This document shows, piece after piece, positions 37,923-48,204 of a stretch of 64,000 nucleotides of DNA. A program made the translations under genes and the position numbers. Position 1 is the first letter of the stretch, and the number at the start of each line of letters is the position of its first letter. The stretch covers positions 1 through 64,000 of the forward strand of contig JABTUS010000002.1 of the NCBI GenBank assembly GCA_015075305.1, in the 5' to 3' direction. Below the pieces are notes generated by a model that saw nothing but the letters and a program-made list of their open reading frames with translations, was not told the DNA's origin and did no database searches. The DNA comes from Opitutaceae bacterium. GTDB taxonomy: Bacteria; Verrucomicrobiota; Verrucomicrobiia; Opitutales; Opitutaceae.

Positions 37923-38260
37923 GATTTCGGGATCGGATGGGCGGTGACAAAGCGCGGAGCGTCACCGGCAGAATCGATAAACCATGCGGTGCGCACATTC
38001 AAGCTCGCGCCCCCGGGCGCACTCAACGGACCGTCGACGACGTAGCGCGTGCCGTGCGGCGTTGGCTCGGTTACGACCACTTCGTTCTCTCTGGCGTGGC
38101 GGAGCAGCGCATGGGCCAATTGCGACCACTCCGGCGCGGTGAAACCAAAACGCAGGAAAAACGCCGCCTTGCTGCCGCCGGCCGGATGCGCCGGGTTGAG
38201 GAGATAGTGCGTGATTTTCTTCTCTGGCACGACGGCCAGATCTACGCCTGGAAGTTTCAT
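37919..38260 (-). CDS. DUF6883 protein
   Basis: A 113-aa protein. KITHYLLNPAHPAGGSKAAF then FLRFGFTAPEWSQLAHALLR fits the DUF6883 pattern (K-x-x-x-Y-L-L-x-x-x-H-P-x-G-x-x-K-A-x-F-F-x-x-x-G-F). TRYVVDGPLSAPGGASLNVR, then W-F-I-D and RFVTAHP complete it. It lies 67 bp after the restriction gene and overlaps DUF4926 by 4 bp. Confidence 0.75.
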   Translation of the reverse strand: MKLPGVDLAVVPEKKITHYLLNPAHPAGGSKAAFFLRFGFTAPEWSQLAHALLRHARENEVVVTEPTPHGTRYVVDGPLSAPGGASLNVRTAWFIDSAGDAPRFVTAHPIPKS

Positions 38261-38447
38261 TTCCAGGATTCCTCGATGAGTTGCAGACCGTTGGGGATCA
38301 TGGGTTCGGCGGGGGTGGACATGGCGGCTACTCCTTGCCTTCGATGCTGCGGACGGTTTCGAGGGTCTGGAGTTTCTGGAGGGCGACTTTGAGGGGGTGA
38401 CTGGCGTCGTGGAGTTCCTCGAACTTCGTGCGGAGGGTTTTCAGGAA

Positions 38448-38510
38448 GGTGGCGCAGACATTCCTGTCTGCGTCTTTGGGCGGAAGGGCAGACAGGAATG
38501 TCTGCCCCAC
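38448..38510. repeat. REP pair inside restriction gene (C-terminal end)
   Basis: Two inverted copies of GGCAGACATTCCTGTCTGCC-type palindrome with a 12-bp spacer, flanked by GGTGG/CCCCAC. Translated in the host frame as VGQTFLSALPPKDADRNVCA. Confidence 0.85.
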
Positions 38511-39870
38511 ACTCTGCTCCACCAGATCGAAGAGTCGAAGCCCGGCGGCGTGCAGCTCCTCCGGGAAATACAGTTCATACACCAGCCCGGTCAGGATCTG
38601 CTCCCAATACGCCAGCATCAATGGGTCGCGCGTGCTCGCCGCCTCGGGGTGGTCGGCGAAGTGGCGGTTTAGGAAAAGAAGGTAATCGACGAGCTGTTCT
38701 ATGGCTCGCTGCTGCGTATCGCTCGCAGAGGGGATCGGCCATTGGGATGAATAGCGGGGTTCGAAATCGAAAAACCCACCCTGCTTGGTAGCGAAGACCT
38801 GCTGTGTGAACCAGAAAGCGACTGGTGAGTTTACGACTCCGGCCAAAAACCGGGCGCGCTCGCTGACAAAGATGCTCGCCTTGTTGTTGGCGAAGTAGCC
38901 GTCGAGATCGACGGCGACATTCACCGTGCCGGAGATTGCGGGCACGATGATCTTGGACTGAGCGAACGCGTCGAGGAATGACTGCTTGGGATTGTTGTCG
39001 AGTTCGAGCCAGTGGTGCTGTCCTTCGGCTTTGCCATCGCGCGAGGAAGTGCATTGCCCGCGCTGGCGCAGCTCATCCTCGAATTGCCTCAGATGCTTCA
39101 GGATGGCCGGATAACGTTTGAGTTCGGCGTGAAAGCCGAACGGGAAAACAATGATATAGAGTCCAGCCCAATCGAGACGCCACCGTTTGATGTCGCGACC
39201 GCGCAACAGGGGTCGAATCAGTTCAGCCGACTTCGGATCTTGCGCGATGAGCGAGGCCCGACGATCGGTGTCAATGATGAAGGCTTCGTTTAGTCCGGTG
39301 ATCACTCCACGATACCACGCTCCGTTAACGTAGTCGCCAAGGGAGGTGCAGGTTTCACGCAGACGCTGGAGGATTTCGCGCTTCGAGTCGCCTTCGAGTC
39401 GCCAGCCGTCAGCGGCGAGCGCGGATTGCGGCATGGTGAAGCTCTTGCGGGCAAACACGTCGGCGAAAGTTTCGACCGGCGGACCCTCTTCCCAATTGAA
39501 GGCGCGCAGGTTCGCACTTTCTGATACCGGTTTCCCAACGCGCTGAAGAATCGCGATGCTGGGATAAGCGATCGCGGTGAAGACGGGCGCATCGCCAAAA
39601 TCGATCAATTGTAGGACGCGGGTATTCCGGTTGAGCCACACCCGAAGTTTCTCGCCGTAGCCAGCGCGAAACCACTTGTTGGACGTAATGAAACTAAAAG
39701 TGCCTCCCTCGCGAAGGAGGCGAATGCCGGCTTCGAAGAAATAGACGAACAGGTCGGCACGCGGATTGAAGCAGGCGTAGCTGGCGCTGAACTCGTCCTT
39801 GTAGTGCTTGATCTGCTCCATCCGCACATAGGGCGGGTTGCCGATGACAATGTCGAATGGGCCCTCAGAA

Positions 39871-39932
39871 GGTGGGGCAGACACTCTTGTCTGCCGTTGA
39901 GGCGAATCGCAGACAGGAATGTCTGCGCCACC
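39871..39932. repeat. REP pair inside restriction gene
   Basis: Inverted pair, slightly diverged (ACTCTTGT in one arm). Translated as GGADIPVCDSPQRQTRVSAP just before the NPPY block, without breaking the frame. Confidence 0.85.
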
Positions 39933-40291
39933 TTGAATCCCACCTTTGATGCCGAACATCCATTCAGCATCGAAGAAGGGCGCGTGGGTGTTCTGATCGT
40001 AAGGATCCCAGGCCGCGAGCTTGCGCGAAGTTTCCTTGGACAGCGCGTGGCTGTCCTCCAGCATGGCGGAGATTTCGCGGCGCTTGGCTTCGTCGGCCTC
40101 GCGCCACTTGCGTTTCGCAGCCGGGCTTCGGGCGTTGAAATGTCCGTGGCGGATTTCGGCGAGCTCGCTCCGGAGGCGGTCCAGGTCCTTGGAAAACAGA
40201 TCGCTCTCCGATTTTTCGATGGGGATGAGGGTGTCGGCGGCGACGAATCGGGTTTCCAGATTCGGGAGGGGGCGGATGCCCATGTTCCAAG

Positions 40292-40352
40292 GTGGGGCAG
40301 ACATTCCTGTCTGCCATTTTCCATCCTGGCAGACAGGAATGTCTGCCCCACC
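40292..40352. repeat. REP pair inside restriction gene
   Basis: A near-perfect inverted pair with an 11-bp spacer. Translated as GGADIPVCQDGKWQTGMSAP. The flanking AGGTGGGG/CCCCACCTT extends the complementarity to about 28 bp per side. Confidence 0.87.
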
Positions 40353-40560
40353 TTCAGGGCCTCCTTCCACCTTCTGGTCCACGACGAGGGAGATGAAGAA
40401 GCGGAGCTTGGCGATCTGCGTGGCGATGGGCTGGATGTCCACGCCGTAGATCGAGTTCTCGATGAGGTAGAGTTTTCTCGCGAAATCGAGGGCGTGGTAG
40501 CGGGTGTCGAAGGATTTTTCGATGTCGGCGATCCGAGCATCGCAGGCGGCGAGCTCGGAG

Positions 40561-40623
40561 AGTGAGGCAGACATTCCTGTCTGCCTTGCTGCCCCTGAAC
40601 CACAGACAGGAATGTCTGTGCCA
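40561..40623. repeat. REP pair inside restriction gene
   Basis: Inverted pair translated as GTDIPVCGSGAARQTGMSAS. It sits 150-200 bp downstream of SAM motif I in the gene. Confidence 0.85.
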
Positions 40624-40876
40624 CTTTGTTCGAGCAGGGCGCGGTAGCGGCGGGCCTCGGCGAGGCGGTCGCGTTTCCAGGATTCGTTGTTGGGGTCGAG
40701 TTTCTGAAGGAGGTCAACGAGACGGTGGAGTGCGCCCATGGGGAAGGCGCCGGAGCCGCAGGCGGGGTCGAGAATCTTGACGCGGCCGATGGCGGCGATG
40801 AGGGCGTCGCGCTCGGCGGGGGTGAATTGTGGGGGCTAGGCCTTGCTGGCGAAGAGAGCGTCGAGGCGCTTGGAGA

Positions 40877-40976
40877 GTGAGGCAGACATTCCTGTCTGCG
40901 ATCCTTTAGCCGACAGGCAGACAGAAATGTCTACCTCACCTTCCAGCAGGTGGCAGACAGGAATGTCTGCGCCACC
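40877..40976. repeat. REP cluster at the 3' side of the RAYT
   Basis: Three palindromes: a pair (40877-40940) plus a single copy (40949-40976). Such a BIME-like cluster next to a RAYT is the expected layout of the parent element. Confidence 0.85.
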
Positions 40977-41570
40977 TTCATAGAGCCAATACTGATCGGC
41001 GTGCAGCTCTGCCTTTTTCGGATTTTCGGCGATGTAGCGGAGAAAGTGGCGGTATTGCTCCTCGCTGCGGACAATGTGGTCGTAGGATTCATCGAGCCAG
41101 AAGGTCCCGGAGGTGCCGAGGAGCTTGTTGGCCTCGCGGGCGCTGGCCCCTTTGATGCCCTTGAGGAGCGTGGAGAGATCATGCCCTTGCAACGGCTCGA
41201 TGAGCGCGTGAACGTGGTTGGGCATGATGACGGCGGAGTGGACTTGCAGACGCTCGCCATCGAATCGCAGGAGGCAGTTCTTGACGGCGTCACGCACTTC
41301 GGGCCGTGCCAGGGCGTGGGAGCCCATACCGGCGTCGAGCCACTCGTCGAGTTTGCGGCCGAAGCGTTCGTCGTATTCCGCCCAGTCCTGCTCACTCCAC
41401 GGCTCGGGATGATGGGATTTCCAGATTTCACGCTGCTCCCGCCATGCGTGAAGCTTTTCCTGGGGAAGTGAGTCCGCGAGCCGGAAGGTGATCCAGTAGA
41501 TGGCTCCGTCTTTCTTCCAGTGGGGGAGGCGGCGTTGCGTGGTGGCCAGGGCTGATGGTGGCACGGAGGA

Positions 41571-41595
41571 GGCAGACAGGAATGTCTGCCCCACC
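41571..41595. repeat. REP at the 5' side of the RAYT
   Basis: A single palindrome copy with the GGTGGGG flank, marking the insertion point after ...SYLQTQM of the restriction protein. Confidence 0.85.
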
Positions 41596-43296
41596 ATTTG
41601 GGTCTGGAGGTAGGACTTGAGGGCCTCGTCCACCATGTAGCTGACGATCTCGCGCGGGGTGTAGAAGGCGCCGAGGGCCTTGCGGGCGGTGGTGCGGGTG
41701 TCCTCGTTGTAGGAGGCGAGGAGGTTTTCAAAAACCTTGCCAAGCAACTCGGGGTCGAGGGCGATTTCCTCCTCCAGCGGGGTGTTCTCCTCGATGGTGA
41801 ACTTGTAACGGGAGAGGATCTCGATCAGGCCGCGGACGCGGGCCCGCTTGGAGCGGGCGGTGCGTTTGTCCTCCTCGCCATAGTCGCGGGAGAGGTCCAC
41901 GGTGCGCTCGGGGCCGAAGAAGAGGTCGTTGGGCAGGTGGCAGGCGAGCTTCGGGTTGTCGGAGAAGCCATCGAGGATGAAGTTGTCCTGCTTTTTGCCG
42001 GACTTGTCGTCGAGGCAGTCGAAGAGGCCGCCGTTGAGGAAGGGGACGCGGGCGGCGAGCCTGGTCCAGTCGGCGGGATTGCGGAAATTGGCCTCATGGC
42101 GCCAGAGGTTGGTGACGCCAAAGTTCTGGTCGCGGCCGCCGGACTCGCTGCGTTTGCGGAAGCCGCGCTGGTCAGCCGGCATGTTGAGGGTGCCGAAGAA
42201 AAGATTCTGGAGGATGGCGTGATAGTAGGTGGGCGCGGAGTCGGGCGCTGACGGGTCGCGGGAAGGGTTGAAGTCCTTCAGCAGGGCCTTGAGGCGGTGT
42301 TCGCGGAAGAGGTCGGTGGGGATGAGGCGTTTCTCGACGAGGAACCAGGAAAAGATGACGCGGGTGAGCAGGCGGATGAGAAAGAGGGATTTCTCCTGCT
42401 CGGTGTCGCAATGCTGCGGGAGGCGGATGGCGCCGTCGTCCACGAGGTGGCGCGCCCAAAAATACCAGTCGGCGATCTCGCGGTAGAAGCTGTTGGAGAG
42501 GGCGTAGGAGCCGAGGCGCTTCTGCCAGGCGGCGTGGAGGGCGACGAAATTGGCGACGCCGTAGTCGGTGAGGAGCTGCGGCAGGGCGAAGTCGTGGAGG
42601 ATCTCGACGTGGGCGCGGATGGGGTCGGCGAAGGCGATGTCCTTGATGAGGGTGACCTTTTCGAGGACATCCTTGGATGAGTCGCGCTTGGAGAGCCGAC
42701 GGTGGATGATGCCGAGGGAGACGGTGCCGCCGTGCTTGAAAACGAGCAGCACTGGCATGTCGAAGAGCCGGTTGACGGCGCGGGTGACGCCGGCCAGCTC
42801 GGTGCGTGTGTAGGGCTGGCCCTTGCGTTCACCCTCGCGTGCGGCGGCTGGGCGCAGCCCGATGGCGAGGAAGAGAAAGCTGTTGATCTCCGCGCCGTCG
42901 AACCGGCCCGTGCTGCCGAAAGCCAGTTCCTCGATACCGGTGGTGGCGGATTGCACCTCGGCGTCGGTGAGCTGGAAGAGGAACTCAACGGCCTGCCAGT
43001 CGGCGAGGAGGGCGCGCTCACGGTTGAGGGTCTGGCCGCGATCAAAAGTGCCGAGGAACCCCGGCGCATCCGCGGAACGGAGCTTCATGCGTCGTTCGCT
43101 CCGGTAACCGAGCGTGGCAAAGAGGCCGAGAGACGCGTCAAACAACGGGCGGTCGTCGAACGCGGCGAGGGCGGTCTCGATTTGCTTCAGGAGCTCGGGG
43201 TTGGAGGGCATGGGCGGGGCGGCGGAGCCGCCAGTTTAAGACGGTAGATTAAGTTTAAAAAAGGAATGCGGACGGAAGAAGGGCTGAAACGTGGGA

Positions 43297-44835
43297 TCAG
43301 GAGGACGTGGCTTTGGCTTGATCGAGCCACGCCCGGCCCTTGGGGGTGAGGCGGTAGCGCTGGCGGGGGCTGGTGGGCTTGTTGGGGAGGGTCGGTTCGA
43401 TGATGCCCTCGGCCAAGGCCGGATCAATGTAGTGCTCGCGCAGGTGCGTGCGATCCTTGAGTCCCAAGCGGGAGCGGACCTCGGCATTGCCCAGATCGCC
43501 GGCTTGCTCGAGCAGGCGGGCAAGCACCTCGACTGGTGGGGTGACTGGTGGGGTGACTGGTGGGGTGACTGGTGGGGTGACTAACCGATCGCCAGTTTCT
43601 TGCGTCCCGCCGACCTGCTGGAAGGCGTGCTCGGGTTTGCGCCGGAGGGTGATGACAAAGCCGTCGGTGAGGGCGAATTCCGGCTCAGGGAGGCCGGCGG
43701 CACGGCAACGTTCGATCATGTCGGCCGTGCCCGTGCCCATGCGCTCAATGTATTTGGTGAGATAAAGCGATTCGGCGAGCAAGGGGTTGCCCGGCACCGA
43801 GCCGTGAGGATGGCGCAGTTTTTCCAGAGTGAGCGAGGGAGGCAGCGCACCAGGATTCCAGACCTCCAAGCGGTCGGCAAACAACATGACCTGCACACTG
43901 CCGTTGCTCGTGTAGTCGCGGTGGGCCACGGCGTTAACGATGGCCTCGCGCACCACCTCGGGCGGCATCTCGTAGGCGACCGGCGCCTGCGTGCTTTCCG
44001 CGCGGGTGCCGACCGCGAGGTTGATCTTGGAAAGGACGAAATCCACCGCCTGATCCACGAGTTCGAAGGCCGTGCCCTTGTAGACTTGGTAGAAGGGAAT
44101 CGGCTTGGACACCGTGGAGCCGTGGAACCGGGCGCATTTGATCTCCGAGGAAAGGAGGAAGCGCTGCGGCTCGCCGCCGAAAAGCAGGATGGCGGCATGG
44201 GTGGGCCGGCCCTCCCGCAGCAGATGCAGATGAGCCAGAACGTCGGCGACTGGCGTATCCTCGGCCAGAGGAAAGCCGCGGGATCGCCGGGCGACGCTCA
44301 CGAAATGCCGCACTTTGCCTGTAGAAATGTCGGCGAGGGTGGCTCCGGTGCAGGTGGCCGCATCGAAGGGACCGTGGCGGATCAGCTCCTTGTCCTCGAG
44401 GTAGCGCACCAGCGCGGCATAGACCCCGGCAATCAGCTCGGCGATGGTGCCGAACCGGCGGCGAATCAACTCGCCGCCGACCTGCCGGATGAGGGCCTGC
44501 ATTTTGGGCTGCTTGTCGTGGTCGTCTGCACCTTGGACGAAGATCAGCCGTGGCTTGTGCCCCCGGCCGGCCTCATCGAATTCGCGGTGGGTCGGGGAAA
44601 GGCCGGCCGCATCCTCGCGGCCATACTCCCGGCCAAAGAGGCCGACATAGACATCGCAACGCGCCACCTCGTCGAGATAGACCTCATCGGCCCGGCGGTC
44701 TGCCGCCGGCATGTCCTCGAAGAGGAACGGTTCGAAGAACCGCCGGAGCAGCGGGTCGCCGCGCAGATAGTCGCGCAGGGCCGCGCGTTCCGCGACGAAT
44801 TCCTTTTGGACGCTGCTGAGAAAAAGGCGGAGCAT
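43297..44835 (-). CDS. DUF4062 + Schlafen/HATPase-type regulator-like protein
   Basis: A 512-aa protein. Residues 1-85 are DUF4062: LRLFLSSVQKEFVAERAALR, then EVARCDVYVGLFGREYG. This is a TIR/SEFIR-related fold found in defence and signalling proteins. Residues about 140-400 are an ATP-binding transcriptional-regulator-like module with the HATPase_c_4 segment MPPEVVREAIVNAVAHRDYT, then EVWNPGALPPSLTLEKL and KYIERMGTGTADMIERC. A TPPV tandem linker follows (420-436), then a winged-helix tail. It lies 3 bp after the helicase gene. The role may be effector or sensor of the operon; inference. Confidence 0.78.
   Translation of the reverse strand: MLRLFLSSVQKEFVAERAALRDYLRGDPLLRRFFEPFLFEDMPAADRRADEVYLDEVARCDVYVGLFGREYGREDAAGLSPTHREFDEAGRGHKPRLIFVQGADDHDKQPKMQALIRQVGGELIRRRFGTIAELIAGVYAALVRYLEDKELIRHGPFDAATCTGATLADISTGKVRHFVSVARRSRGFPLAEDTPVADVLAHLHLLREGRPTHAAILLFGGEPQRFLLSSEIKCARFHGSTVSKPIPFYQVYKGTAFELVDQAVDFVLSKINLAVGTRAESTQAPVAYEMPPEVVREAIVNAVAHRDYTSNGSVQVMLFADRLEVWNPGALPPSLTLEKLRHPHGSVPGNPLLAESLYLTKYIERMGTGTADMIERCRAAGLPEPEFALTDGFVITLRRKPEHAFQQVGGTQETGDRLVTPPVTPPVTPPVTPPVEVLARLLEQAGDLGNAEVRSRLGLKDRTHLREHYIDPALAEGIIEPTLPNKPTSPRQRYRLTPKGRAWLDQAKATSS
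43535..43582. repeat. 12-bp tandem repeat x4 coding for TPPV units
   Basis: GGTGGGGTGACT repeated four times without mismatch, in frame, giving (TPPV)4 in the linker of the DUF4062 protein. Being a multiple of three, copy-number change would not break the frame. Confidence 0.9.
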
Positions 44836-44838
44836 GGC

Positions 44839-47800
44839 TCAGGAAGTGGAGTCGGGCGGCAAAATCACCAACCAAGTGACGAGTTCGAAGGCCGCATCAT
44901 TGGCCTGCGGCTGCTCTTTCACGGTGGGCAAAATAAACGAGCGGTTGCCCTGCAGGTTGTCCGCCAGCCGCTCCTGGTAAGAAGAGGTGATGGATGAAAC
45001 CGCCTTCTGAATCAGCTCAGAATAGGCGCTCATGTCCGCTCCTTGTTGCGTCTGCCGGTCGAACAGACGGCAGAGTTCGACGTAGGGTTCGGTTTTCCCC
45101 GCCGCGAGTCCGCGGAAGAGGTTGAGGACGGTCTTGGCCTGCACAAAGGCCAGGCGGACGTCGCCCGTGTGCTGAACATAGACGAGGTAATGCGGCGCGA
45201 GGGGATTGATGCGTTCGCTGGCGGGGGAATCGGCACCGGCTTTCTGCCGCAGGCAGTAGATGACGCCCGGCCGGGCCAGCGGAATATCCGCTGCGGGGGG
45301 CACGACGGCATACAGGCCGAGGGGCGCGCGCTCCAGCTCGTCTTTGTGGGCTTGGAGGAAGTTGAGCAAATCCTGCCGGAATTCATCGAGGGAGAAGTCG
45401 CCGAGGGAGACCGAGTCGTCGAGGTCTTCGAGATCGAGCACCTCGTCCTTGAGGCGTTTGAGCTGGCGGTCGCGGAAGAGCAGGTCGTCCTTGATGAGGT
45501 CTGCGAGTTGCGTCGTATCCAGCAGGTTGTCCGTCTGCGTGGCGGTGAGGTCCACCAGGGCCATGCGCGCCTCGACGCGGTGCTTGACGCCGAGGTAGCG
45601 GTCGAGATCTGCGACGGGCCAGAAGTTGACGAGCTGCACGGCCTCGTTGCGCGAGCCGATGCGATCAATCCGCCCAAAGCGCTGGATGATGCGGACGGGG
45701 TTCCAGTGGATGTCGTAATTCACCAGCAGGTCGCAGTCCTGGAGGTTCTGGCCCTCGGAGATGCAATCGGTGGCGATGAGCAGGTCGATTTCCTCGCGCT
45801 GATTGGGGAACGCCTCGGCCTGATCGGCCCGGCGTTTGGCGACCGGCGAAAAGTTGGTCAGAATGTCGTCGAAATCCGTGCGGCCGAGGGAAGCGGCGTT
45901 GCCGCCGTCGCCGCAGACGAGGCCGACATGAATCTTCAATTCCTGGCGCGCCCACAGGCCGAGATTTTCGTGGAGGTAGCGGGCGGTGTCGGCAAAGGCG
46001 GTGAAAACGAGGACTTTTCGATTTAGCCGGCGGTCGCGGTTCGTCGTGGGCCGCCGGGCTTTGGCGGCGATGAGGGCTTTCAGCTCCGCCAGTTTGCCGT
46101 CGCGGCGAGGCGTGACGGACAGGGTTTCTTTCCAGAGATCTTGAAGCTGGCTGCGGTCGCCGCGGACGGCCTCGAGCCACTTGGGAAGCTCCAGATGCCC
46201 GAGGTGGATGCGGCGGCGTCCGCCGATGGTAAAGTCTTCCCCGTCAAAATCCGGATCTTCAAACTCGTCGGGCGTCAGCGAATCAAAATCCAACTCGGGG
46301 TTCTCGTTCAGGTGCTGCTCGAAATCCGTGATCCGTTTTTCCAGGACGTTGATTTTCGCGATGGTGCGCTCGAGGGTTAGGCGAAACGAGTCCACCGAGC
46401 TCTCCAAGCGCTTGAGAAAGTTCACCTTCATCATGCCGATGAGGATTTTTTCACGACCCTCCTGGGTGAAGCCGCCGAGGATTTTGGCCTGGTAGGCGTC
46501 CTTGATCGCGGCGGGCAGGTCCGGGCGGAGAAAGCTCGTCGGGTGATAGAGCGCCAGGCGCAGCGCGCTGATTTCGCCGTCGAGTTGCTCGAACGAGAGG
46601 TAATTTTTCTCCGTGGCGATGGGCGCGTGGATGGCCTTGGGGGGCGGGCGCTGCGGGAATCCGCCCAGCCGCTTCATCTCGCCGGCATAATGGCCGGCAA
46701 TCTGGCGGCGGGAGCGGGCGAGGCTGAGGCCGTCGAGCAGCTTGAAAAAGTCCCCGCCGATGGCGGCGATGAGGTCACGGGTCTTGCGCTGGCTGGCGGG
46801 CTTGGCCGGGTCGGCCCAGCGGGTGAAATGAGTTTGGGCCTGCCGGGTGGTTTCGCGCACCGACGGGATGCCGAGGGTTTCCGCAAACGCGCGGTCGGCG
46901 GTTTCTTCGCGCGCGACATCGCCGCCCGCGATGAAGGAAATCTGGTTGCGCAGATCGGCGAGCTGGTTGTTCACCGGCGTGGCGGACAGCAGGAGAACCT
47001 TGGTGCGGATGCCGGTGCTGATGATGTCCTGCATCAGGCGCTCGTAGCGGGTGCGGCGCGGCTCCTCGTCCTCCGGCCGCTGGGTGGCGGGCTTGTTGTT
47101 CCGAAAATTGTGGGATTCATCAATGACGACGAGATCGTAGTTGCCCCAGTTGAGGGCCGCGAGGTCGAGGCCGTTCGAGTCGCCGTGGGTGCGGGACAGG
47201 TCGGTATGGTGGAGGACATCGTAGCGGAAGCGGTCCGCCTCAAACGGATTCAACGTGCTGGGCTGGCGATAGACCGTCCAGTTGCGGCGCAGTTTCTTCG
47301 GGCAGAGCACGAGCACCTTTTCGTTGCGCAGCTCGAAATACTTGATGACCGCGAGCGCGGTGTAGGTTTTGCCCAGACCAACGCTGTCGGCGAGGATGCA
47401 GCCGTTGTATTGCTTGATCTTGTTGATCGCGGAACGGGCGCCATCGCGCTGGAAGGTGTAGAGCGCCCGCCAAATCCCCGTGTCCGGCAGTCGCATCTGC
47501 CGCAGGTTTTCGTCCATGATCTGCCCCGCCTCGATGAAACGGCGAAACAGTTCGTAGAGGGTTTTGTAATAGATGAACTGGGGCGACTGGTCGGCGTAAA
47601 CCTGCAACAGGTAATCCAGCACTTGCGGCTTCACGTCCTCGACACGCGAGGTGTCGTTCCAGAGTTCCTCAAACCAGGCGTGCAGGTCGGCGCGGTCGCG
47701 GTTGCCGTCGACGATCAGATTCAGCTCCACATTGTTGCCAGTGGCGGCCAGCCCGAGCCCGCGCGTGGTGAAGTTGGAGCTGCCCACGATGGCCGCAGTC

Positions 47801-48204
47801 ACCTCGCCGCGCCGGATGTGCGACATCTTGCCGTGGAGGAATCCGGTGCGCGTCACGGAGCGGACATCGACCTTGTCCCGCATCCATCCCGCGCAGGCCC
47901 GCGCCAGATGCCGCTGGCTCAGTCCGCCGGCGAGATTCAAGCCGTCATCCCGCAGAACAAAGGCCGCGCCTTCCTTGTGTTCAGGATCGAGGGTCTGGAT
48001 GAAGGCGGGTTCGCCGAACAGCAGCCGGATGCGGCCGAGGCTGTCGAGCTGCGCGCGCAGCCTGTCATAGGCAAAAACCGTGAAATAGGCCGTGACGAGA
48101 TCGAGGTCGGCTCCGGCGCGCAGATTCTCGCGAAGGAAATCGCCCACGGTGCCACGATGATGGTTGTCGCGAAGGTTGCTCTGGGGGGACGGCGTCGGCG
48201 GCAT
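44839..48204 (-). CDS. PLD-SNF2 helicase (defence-type)
   Basis: A 1,121-aa protein. Residues about 15-200 are a phospholipase-D-like domain: the HxK block FLHGKMSHIRRGEVTAAIVG continuing to SSNFTTRGLG. Residues about 240-480 are helicase lobe 1: Walker A ILADSVGLGKTYTALAVIKY, DEAH-like LVVIDESHNFRNN, motif III LLLSATPVNNQLADLRN. Lobe 2 (about 720-880): KVLVFTAFADTARYLHENLG, LLIATDCISEGQNLQDCDLL, RIIQRFGRIDRIGS. SNF2-type helicases with PLD domains accompany restriction-modification and DISARM-like systems. First gene of the minus-strand operon. Confidence 0.88.
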   Translation of the reverse strand: MPPTPSPQSNLRDNHHRGTVGDFLRENLRAGADLDLVTAYFTVFAYDRLRAQLDSLGRIRLLFGEPAFIQTLDPEHKEGAAFVLRDDGLNLAGGLSQRHLARACAGWMRDKVDVRSVTRTGFLHGKMSHIRRGEVTAAIVGSSNFTTRGLGLAATGNNVELNLIVDGNRDRADLHAWFEELWNDTSRVEDVKPQVLDYLLQVYADQSPQFIYYKTLYELFRRFIEAGQIMDENLRQMRLPDTGIWRALYTFQRDGARSAINKIKQYNGCILADSVGLGKTYTALAVIKYFELRNEKVLVLCPKKLRRNWTVYRQPSTLNPFEADRFRYDVLHHTDLSRTHGDSNGLDLAALNWGNYDLVVIDESHNFRNNKPATQRPEDEEPRRTRYERLMQDIISTGIRTKVLLLSATPVNNQLADLRNQISFIAGGDVAREETADRAFAETLGIPSVRETTRQAQTHFTRWADPAKPASQRKTRDLIAAIGGDFFKLLDGLSLARSRRQIAGHYAGEMKRLGGFPQRPPPKAIHAPIATEKNYLSFEQLDGEISALRLALYHPTSFLRPDLPAAIKDAYQAKILGGFTQEGREKILIGMMKVNFLKRLESSVDSFRLTLERTIAKINVLEKRITDFEQHLNENPELDFDSLTPDEFEDPDFDGEDFTIGGRRRIHLGHLELPKWLEAVRGDRSQLQDLWKETLSVTPRRDGKLAELKALIAAKARRPTTNRDRRLNRKVLVFTAFADTARYLHENLGLWARQELKIHVGLVCGDGGNAASLGRTDFDDILTNFSPVAKRRADQAEAFPNQREEIDLLIATDCISEGQNLQDCDLLVNYDIHWNPVRIIQRFGRIDRIGSRNEAVQLVNFWPVADLDRYLGVKHRVEARMALVDLTATQTDNLLDTTQLADLIKDDLLFRDRQLKRLKDEVLDLEDLDDSVSLGDFSLDEFRQDLLNFLQAHKDELERAPLGLYAVVPPAADIPLARPGVIYCLRQKAGADSPASERINPLAPHYLVYVQHTGDVRLAFVQAKTVLNLFRGLAAGKTEPYVELCRLFDRQTQQGADMSAYSELIQKAVSSITSSYQERLADNLQGNRSFILPTVKEQPQANDAAFELVTWLVILPPDSTS

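Follow-up and report, generated by a model that had tools for sequence, protein, structure and literature searches.

The window analysed here, a stretch of 64,000 nucleotides of an Opitutaceae bacterium, carries on its minus strand, from 43211 to 38328, a Type IIG restriction-methylation gene with a RAYT (REP-associated tyrosine transposase) lying in frame between inverted REP hairpins (Table 1). The first open reading frame (ORF) of the gene (43211-40836, minus strand, 791 aa) reads, in order, through FYTPREIVSYMVDEALKSYLQTQM, the REP-encoded VGQTFLSAS, the RAYT, a REP-encoded peptide and SLSKRLDALFASKA to a TAG, and the second ORF (40739-38328, minus strand, 803 aa) starts past methylase motif I. 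The PADLOC best match of both ORFs is REase_MTase_IIG, and Pfam recognizes Eco57I and TaqI_C in the second, the gene thus being assigned to Type IIG by families found over both of its halves. Homologues of the N-terminal part (E<=1e-20) occur in 22 of the 384 genomes of the class.

The insert covers 41594 to about 40877, its outer limits being the left and right REPs, which have the heads GTGG and GTGA, respectively. Its RAYT possesses the HxH motif and the Tyr of the Y1/HUH enzymes (MPNHVHALIEP and YIAENP; Y1_Tnp, PF01797, at 27.2 bits versus a cut-off of 23 in the first ORF), the conserved Tyr being presumably the catalytic one, and two inverted REPs mark its ends. It is not a separate gene: host gene sequence continues on both sides and the RAYT has no stop of its own. 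The TnpA_REP fold is predicted for its counterpart in G005, a relative of the same genus (best PDB match 4er8, E 1.3e-4; pLDDT mostly 85-97 in the RAYT part, the only part well predicted in a fragment model with a pTM of 0.43); a structure model of a fused LeuRS (mean pLDDT 62) was left unused. Four REP-only dimers lie within the second half of the gene.

Table 1. Features of the interrupted IIG gene (window coordinates)
Feature	Positions	Strand	Basis
IIG gene, N-terminal part, ending ...VDEALKSYLQTQ	41598..43211	-	ORF reading, PADLOC
Left REP hairpin GTGGGGCAGACATTCCTGTCTGCC, in-frame translation VGQTFLSA	41571..41594	-	hairpin and inverted-repeat analysis
RAYT (HUH/Y1) domain without own stop, in host frame	40989..41534	-	ORF reading, Pfam
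REP hairpin directly 3' of RAYT, GTGGCGCAGACATTCCTGTCTGCC	40952..40975	-	hairpin reading
Second REP-like hairpin, altered, GTGAGGTAGACATTTCTGTCTGCC	40916..40939	-	hairpin reading
Right-end REP, inverted relative to left REP, GCAGACAGGAATGTCTGCCTCAC	40877..40899	-	hairpin reading
In-frame TAG, not in G005	40836..40838	-	ORF reading, comparison with relatives
Methylase motif I DPACGSGAFP, 5' of first ATG after TAG	40740..40769	-	sequence reading
IIG gene, C-terminal half: Eco57I methylase and TaqI_C specificity domain	38328..40739	-	Pfam, PADLOC
REP-only dimer TDIPVCGSGAARQTGMSAS, in frame, not in G005	40558..40627		comparison with G005
REP-only dimer ADIPVCQDGKWQTGMSAPP, in frame, not in G005	40289..40355		comparison with G005
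REP-only dimer, in frame; ends unplaceable, flanks too unlike G005	39868..39935		comparison with G005
REP-only dimer, in frame, C-terminal tail	38446..38512		comparison with G005

A preliminary description of the locus had claimed that a RAYT is translated in frame inside a restriction-methylation gene; the reading of ORF 43211-40836, the inverted REPs and G005 all bear out the in-frame position, and translation as one chain would follow from it. It had also placed the TAG ahead of motif I, where we find it (40838-40836), and held that this amber codon cuts the motif off from any usable start; indeed, the in-frame codons from the TAG to DPACGSGAFP include no ATG, GTG, TTG or CTG, only ATC and ATT. 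A single uninterrupted chain including motif I is encoded in G005, but in the window gene it is broken by the TAG.

Relatives at the IIG linker

The same fusion, which the preliminary description had proposed to seek in related genomes, is indeed found there. In G005, the frame remains open over 1,606 codons, with a RAYT at the same linker and no TAG, and REPs with GTAG heads bound this RAYT at both ends; in-frame RAYTs also occupy this site in G099, G390 and G088. Five named records with such an insert are filed under Verrucomicrobia, Chloroflexales, Flavobacterium, Bacteroidota and Ignavibacteriales, and the IIG genes with a RAYT in frame at this linker are filed under four phyla. The in-frame arrangement exceeds chance, because inverted REP hairpins flank the RAYT and because G005 possesses a RAYT at the same linker without the TAG. 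Decayed flanking frames around the same insert, named in advance as an observation that would refute the proposal, are absent from the nearest relative, G005, but in the more distant G204 the host frame and the RAYT no longer form a single open frame. At least two IIG copies (those of the window and G204) are broken, and decay thus does affect some copies in this gene family.

Thr (ACC or ACG) stands opposite the TAG in L190, L191, L192 and G005, the four sequences nearest to that of the window gene; other IIG members, which the window residues following the TAG (PPQFTPAE) resemble more, have other residues there. The TAG probably inactivates the methylase half of the window gene, which is a defence gene, dispensable to the genome.

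The linker is variable in length at the insertion site, close IIG relatives without the insert occur, and both the IIG site and a site in LeuRS are represented by three kinds of alleles: empty, bearing nothing but REP-like sequence, or bearing a RAYT. In a host tree of 25 IIG genes, RAYT presence takes 9 changes, at least 5 of them forced by well-supported branches, a scattered presence at a fixed site such as is expected of inteins; whole-gene transfer can also scatter an insert among restriction genes. The exact window REP was found only inside the window IIG gene, which had suggested a recent import of this gene alone. However, gene order at the window locus matches that of G005 over several genes, and an older shared defence locus is just as likely.

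RAYTs inside other host genes

RAYTs are found in frame inside a range of other genes, encoding LeuRS, CarB, ValRS, ClpB, MetH, DnaE, PriA, IspG, HsdR, MmeI, a glycosyltransferase, helicases and others. Host sequence flanks the RAYT on both sides in 16 of the 26 fusions scanned with Pfam (judged by reading), and NCBIfam models recognize LeuRS and CarB sequence on either side of it; host labels outside these scans come from reading the flanks and from similarity within groups. The genomes are drafts almost throughout, and those with a name are mostly MAGs; among the drafts, the interrupted LeuRS is the sole copy over the cut-off in 8/8 genomes and the interrupted CarB in 6/6, all without internal stops. 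The 60 selected loci, chosen mainly for long frames, favour embedded RAYTs, as does one search for relatives whose query was built from long-frame RAYTs. At 71 RAYT loci not close to a contig end, an open frame runs through in sense in 33 cases, in antisense in one and in neither direction in 37. Among stand-alone RAYTs, the nearest relative has the make-up of an ordinary REPtron, its REPs headed by GTAG and its stop being TAA.

Inverted repeats scoring >=14 at both ends were found for 44 of 54 RAYTs, the window included, versus 3 of 54 mismatched pairings, a clear pair being absent in the remaining 10. The HxH motif and the conserved Tyr are present in all 56 long-frame RAYTs (L132 and L158, of 58 rows, left out), including, by eye, four rows with A-x-NHVH, which keep HxH, and five with atypical Tyr motifs, which keep the Tyr. 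Among 77 same-site pairs, which are not independent and many of which have pS near saturation, RAYT pN is lower than pS in all 77, and in 67 the flanks are more similar to each other than the RAYTs are, a difference for part of which faster evolution could account. As to the earlier alternative of a neutral relic or a true fusion, the open frames of the relatives speak for an in-frame fusion, and the universal HxH and Tyr, with pN below pS throughout, speak against a neutral relic.

Synonymous divergence of insert and flanks agrees in some pairs and not in others. In the window and G005, pS is 0.29 for the flank and 0.61 for the RAYT; with this discordance, and with near relatives being empty, a single insertion in their common ancestor followed by inheritance was set aside. 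In two LeuRS genes of one genus, flank dS is 0.48 and 0.45 and RAYT dS 0.10, the only pair in which the RAYT appears younger than the flanks, a pattern that synonymous-site constraint could mimic. For ValRS (L124 and L125), pS values of 0.48 and 0.48 fit plain joint descent. In a tree of 128 RAYTs, labelled with 17 host sites plus 'alone' and 'other' (L120 entering as MmeI, its host by Pfam), the labels take 40 changes versus a mean of 80.5 when shuffled, with none of 200 shuffles as low. Loyalty to sites has its exceptions: the 12 IIG rows take 7 changes, and neither PriA nor MmeI forms a cluster. As for vehicles, no match was found in a phage collection at E<=1e-5, and only four weak ones (29-37% identity) in a plasmid collection at the same threshold, and spread by phages or plasmids was set aside on these grounds.

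Origin and maintenance of the embedded units

REPs are mostly extragenic, and RAYTs are known as separate genes. The described RAYT/TnpA_REP systems and REPtrons (PMC2817692, PMC3733652, PMC6006769; structure 4er8), in the parts of these sources available, likewise consist of an HUH/Y1 transposase between two inverted REPs, but are separate genes, whereas here a stop-less unit is read through within another protein. REPs within ORFs, often dimers encoding 20-30 aa, are described for O. terrae and R. conorii in the available part of PMC3733652; as described there, these intragenic REPs and the Rickettsia palindromic elements place REPs, not a whole transposase, in genes. Our searches of the open-licence PMC literature turned up no description of an in-frame RAYT within a different gene.

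We consider it likely that REP-RAYT units reside as internal domains of host proteins and have repeatedly reached recurring sites. The insert would be a REPtron without its own stop, housed within the host protein; in the window it would sit in a length-variable Type IIG linker and be translated as part of the enzyme, and related units would hold recurring sites in numerous large genes, some of them essential. Such units would be repeatedly gained and lost at these sites, the nuclease apparently remaining active and presumably nicking at the REPs, and they would resemble homing elements in behaviour but could do without splicing, since the host protein would work with the domain in place. The window host would then be a losable defence gene that has acquired a TAG, probably killing its methylase half.

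A less probable reading, still a serious one, is that the RAYTs are tolerated passengers, inserted at random and surviving only where they fall in frame in tolerant stretches of long proteins, spreading by descent and host-gene transfer, with no homing, so that recurrent sites would reflect tolerance alone. The IIG and LeuRS sites, when compared with the empty alleles, do lie in stretches of variable length, joint descent fits some same-site pairs, and restriction genes pass from species to species, with several genes in the same order at the window and G005 loci. However, RAYTs cluster by site, at some sites across phyla, their synonymous divergence differs from that of the flanks in both directions, and core genes such as LeuRS and CarB are also interrupted.

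Removal of the insert from RNA or protein, as by an intron or intein, leaving a normal host enzyme, seems improbable. Inteins with homing endonucleases are in-frame, site-faithful, scattered and often found in essential genes, and embedded RAYTs resemble them in all these respects; the scattered IIG presence and the clustering by site, with no splicing domain found, may thus be called an intein-like pattern. But the end peptides are variable REP translations, RNA splicing needs no open frame, Pfam detected no intein family in the window gene or in the 26 fusions, and Rfam at gathering thresholds gave no matches in 13 loci and in window positions 38000-43500, which argues against an intron or IStron. 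Inteins are also reported in conserved parts of proteins (PMC2814812, part available), unlike the length-variable IIG and LeuRS sites. Another parallel is the ShiLan domain of phage methylases, for which the available part of PMC11855218 describes a stop-free in-frame insertion, as in the window also in a DNA methylase gene, with intein-like evolution and no splicing domain detected. Its nuclease, however, is an HNH endonuclease out of the host frame in phages, whereas the embedded RAYT nuclease is of the HUH type, in the host frame, in bacterial genomes and in many unrelated genes.

We give equally little credence to domestication of the RAYT into a functional DNA nickase within the restriction enzyme, although many hosts act on DNA (IIG, HsdR, MmeI, PriA, DnaE, helicases), and although HxH and Tyr are kept and the RAYT is retained with pN<pS in pairs fitting joint descent. 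The idea of a purpose-built nick-and-methylate enzyme was abandoned once RAYT relatives surfaced in LeuRS, CarB, MetH and other unrelated hosts, including IspG and a glycosyltransferase; the insert is also missing from close IIG relatives, its presence being scattered. Least credible is a dead relic or a misassembly in one genome, to which the window TAG and the broken frame in G204 might point but which is contradicted as a general account, many genomes sharing the arrangement in unbroken frames with HxH and Tyr intact, among them two carriers whose records do not have MAG in the title (Flavobacterium branchiophilum NBRC 15030 and Chloroflexales bacterium ZM16-3).

Going beyond the reading of REP-RAYT units as internal domains, the chances seem to us about even that stop-less units constitute a class of homing elements that stay in frame without splicing: as permanent internal domains of proteins, these HUH transposases would have colonised the same few sites in core and defence genes across several phyla and would leave in-frame REP scars when lost. 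They would be protected against decay by frameshift or nonsense mutation, since damage to the RAYT would also damage an essential host protein. Whether RAYTs still move becomes testable, because close relatives hold empty, REP-only and filled alleles at recurring sites. Surveys may throw out such fusion proteins as annotation errors; in the available part of PMC6006769, a few unexpectedly long RAYT members were dropped as gene fusions or annotation errors. The interrupted genes also offer natural cases of core enzymes bearing large domain insertions. A transposase persisting as a domain of LeuRS, CarB or DnaE would represent a new survival route for a selfish gene, which the host would translate and the essentiality of the host protein would protect.

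The interrupted IIG gene and the same linker in other genomes

The Type IIG restriction-methylation gene, on the minus strand of the window, is split into two open reading frames, the first of which contains Y1_Tnp and the second Eco57I and TaqI_C (Pfam), with REase_MTase_IIG as the best PADLOC match of both. The reading of the frames bears out the preliminary description, of a REP-associated tyrosine transposase (RAYT) read in frame and followed by a TAG before methylase motif I (DPACGSGAFP). As this motif precedes the first ATG after the TAG, it is indeed cut off from any usual start, and methylase activity has therefore probably been lost in this copy. In alignment, the residue at the TAG is threonine in the four closest relatives and, since the second half of the gene is otherwise open, the TAG may be a recent change or a sequencing error; it informs on the window copy alone, not on the fusion of IIG and RAYT.

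Parts of the interrupted IIG gene in the window
Feature	Position	Strand	Description
First ORF	43211-40836	minus	791 aa; IIG N-terminal part, REP peptide, RAYT, REP peptide, SLSKRLDALFASKA
In-frame TAG ending first ORF	40838-40836	minus	after the SLSKRLDALFASKA stretch
Methylase motif I	40769-40740	minus	downstream of the TAG, ahead of the first ATG
Second ORF	40739-38328	minus	803 aa; methylase core and specificity domain

The insertion site is bracketed, in alignment, by three uninterrupted homologues (L190, L191, L192) that read KSYLATQVPRCKGALDDLF or nearly so. The same fusion is found in a same-genus relative, G005, with the RAYT at the corresponding linker of the homologous gene in a single open frame of 1,606 codons, and, also in open frame, in G099, G390, and G088 of the class; in G197 a RAYT occupies the linker in open frame as well, with masked letters reached before motif I. 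The decayed flanks that would have spoken against the preliminary observation are absent from the nearest carrier, G005, but no single open frame any longer covers host gene and RAYT in G204. A scan of named genomes (best 80 of 458) added L219 (Verrucomicrobia), L234 (Chloroflexales bacterium ZM16-3), L293 (Flavobacterium branchiophilum NBRC 15030), L294 (another Bacteroidota), and L298 (Ignavibacteriales), each having, in a single open frame, its RAYT downstream of the FYTP region and upstream of motif I; for L219, L294, and L298, which are labelled as MAGs, the phylum rests on binning. Two genomes of the class are identical to named records over the loci fetched, G390 to a Verrucomicrobiota MAG and G365 to a Chthoniobacter flavus MAG, so that the window very likely derives from Verrucomicrobiota.

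Some further observations concern IIG genes and their surroundings. Three IIG genes share a contig (G099:C377; L099, L190, L211); one of them has a RAYT and another lacks it. The IIG gene of G288 (L194) has a longer REP-like linker at the insertion site without a RAYT, possibly a scar. The C-terminal tail of IIG also occurs as detached copies close to other IIG genes (G005:C5:126907-127227, in L056; G007:C128; G008:C132), a pattern that would fit replacement of the specificity half with the former tails staying in place. In the window, a DUF4062/HATPase_c_4/Fic-like_C gene (43297-44835, minus) contains the 12-nt unit GACTGGTGGGGT head to tail at 43531-43578, encoding repeated VTPP and possibly variable in length. 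The adjoining 44839-48204, encoding PLD and SNF2 helicase (PADLOC match C3a139, HKD+Snf2) and matched by a stretch in G005, is likely, with the neighbouring genes, a defence locus.

Other host genes

Relatives of the window RAYT, used as the query, are present in 183 of the 384 genomes of the class. Of the 150 matches listed, which are part of a larger total, open frames of 700 codons or more hold 54, frames of 400-699 hold 16, and frames below 400 hold 80; 53 long-frame places besides the window (52 stretches, one with two) and 8 others were fetched. Recurrent hosts, interrupted at recurrent places, are (fetched, among the matches listed) LeuRS (8), CarB (6), MetH (4), ValRS (3), ClpB (3), a DinG-like helicase (3), IIG, and HsdR types, most labels being assigned by reading the flanks. 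By our reading of the Pfam tables for 26 fusions, host domains occur on both sides of the RAYT in 16 (DnaE, PriA, IspG, MmeI, SNF2, and a glycosyltransferase among them), on one side or weakly in 8, and in neither position in 2; at L106 and L150, Y1_Tnp was not called and RAYT identity comes from blastp. One locus, L132 (G286:C330), has two equal-scoring RAYTs in tandem in one open frame, its host family not recognised.

For the essential hosts LeuRS and CarB, the interrupted gene is stop-free and the sole gene over the family cut-off in all carrier genomes (8/8 and 6/6, respectively), and the other genomes of these searches (6 and 8, respectively) possess genes without a RAYT-sized insert. 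As the carrier genomes are drafts, 89-98% complete, a second copy may exist. In fifteen relatives of the same genus, LeuRS comes as a single match that lacks a RAYT; two of these relatives (L166, L173) contain short in-frame REP-like inserts where the RAYT sits in LeuRS.

State, hairpins, and descent of the embedded RAYT

The HxH motif and the conserved Tyr are kept in all 56 long-frame RAYTs (58 rows minus the tandem pair L132 and the truncated L158; motif count, finished by eye). In all 77 same-site pairs, which overlap and many of which have pS close to saturation, RAYT pN is below pS, with a mean pN/pS of 0.44 versus 0.33 for the flanks; part of this selection may be older than the embedding. 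In an AlphaFold2 model of a G005 fragment the RAYT part is well predicted, with a RAYT-REP complex (4er8) as the best PDB match. An ordinary REPtron (a RAYT with inverted REPs) is seen in the nearest stand-alone relative (G011), which has a TAA stop codon and REPs headed by GTAG; the embedded form thus looks derived through stop loss.

Inverted repeats (score at least 14) flank the RAYT in 44 of 54 cases (53 rows plus the window, five rows excluded beforehand), versus 3 of 54 in pairings of the left end of one locus with the right end of another. The hairpin GCAGACAGGAATGTCTGC has nine copies in the 4.87-Mb genome (at most one mismatch), every one within the IIG gene, as are all six sites from a palindrome search with free loop. 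Apart from the REPs at the RAYT ends, the second half of the gene contains four REP dimers in frame, two of them clean insertions compared with G005; REPs inside ORFs are already known, O. terrae being among the sources named in PMC3733652. At the LeuRS site (L126, L127, L135, L137) the hairpin head, judged by eye, seems GGAGC-like instead of GTAG, which suggests that this lineage of RAYTs has another class of REP.

In a tree of 25 IIG genes (10 with RAYT, 15 without; G197 and G204, both incomplete, left aside and L193 not found; 9 of 22 inner branches weak), RAYT presence takes 9 changes, at least 5 of them forced by well-supported branches, versus a shuffled mean of 8.1, and appears scattered as if at random. 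On the RAYT tree (n=128), labels for 17 host sites, together with 'alone' and 'other', take 40 changes, the shuffled mean being 80.5 and none of 200 shuffles reaching so low a count; an earlier tree (n=67) gave 25 versus 47.0. Loyalty to sites, as these trees depict it, is strong, not strict: IIG takes 7 changes over 12 rows, no clusters are formed by PriA or by MmeI, and one IspG RAYT falls among MetH RAYTs. Synonymous divergence of RAYT and flanks disagrees in both directions, the flanks being closer in window/G005 (pS 0.29, RAYT 0.61) and CarB L129/L139 (pS 0.57, RAYT 0.87), and the RAYT closer in LeuRS L134/L136 (dS 0.10, flanks 0.48 and 0.45), where difference density shifts near the element ends; ValRS L124/L125 (0.48 and 0.48), like other pairs, is compatible with joint descent. 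In 67 of 77 same-site pairs, similarity is lower for the RAYT than for its flanks, which could in part be due to faster evolution.

Splicing, precedents, and meaning

In the named scan (best 80 of 458), 9 loci lie near contig ends; in the 71 others the RAYT frame is open at least 80 codons past both ends in 33, a share biased upward by a query built from long-frame RAYTs and by the restriction to the best 80, with an open antisense frame instead in 1, another sense frame in 0, and neither in 37. No intron was found in an Rfam search of 13 loci and window positions 38000-43500, and no intein in a Pfam search of the window gene and 26 fusions. The IIG and LeuRS sites, when set against empty alleles, lie in stretches of variable length.

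RAYTs and REPtrons have been described before, as have REPs within genes; a search of open-licence PMC literature found no report of a RAYT as an in-frame internal domain. One analogue is the ShiLan element of phages, whose nuclease is an HNH enzyme encoded out of frame (PMC11855218), unlike the embedded RAYT. Whether stop-less REP-RAYT units as a whole make up a class of non-splicing in-frame homing elements, permanent internal domains of their host proteins, is in our judgement evenly balanced.
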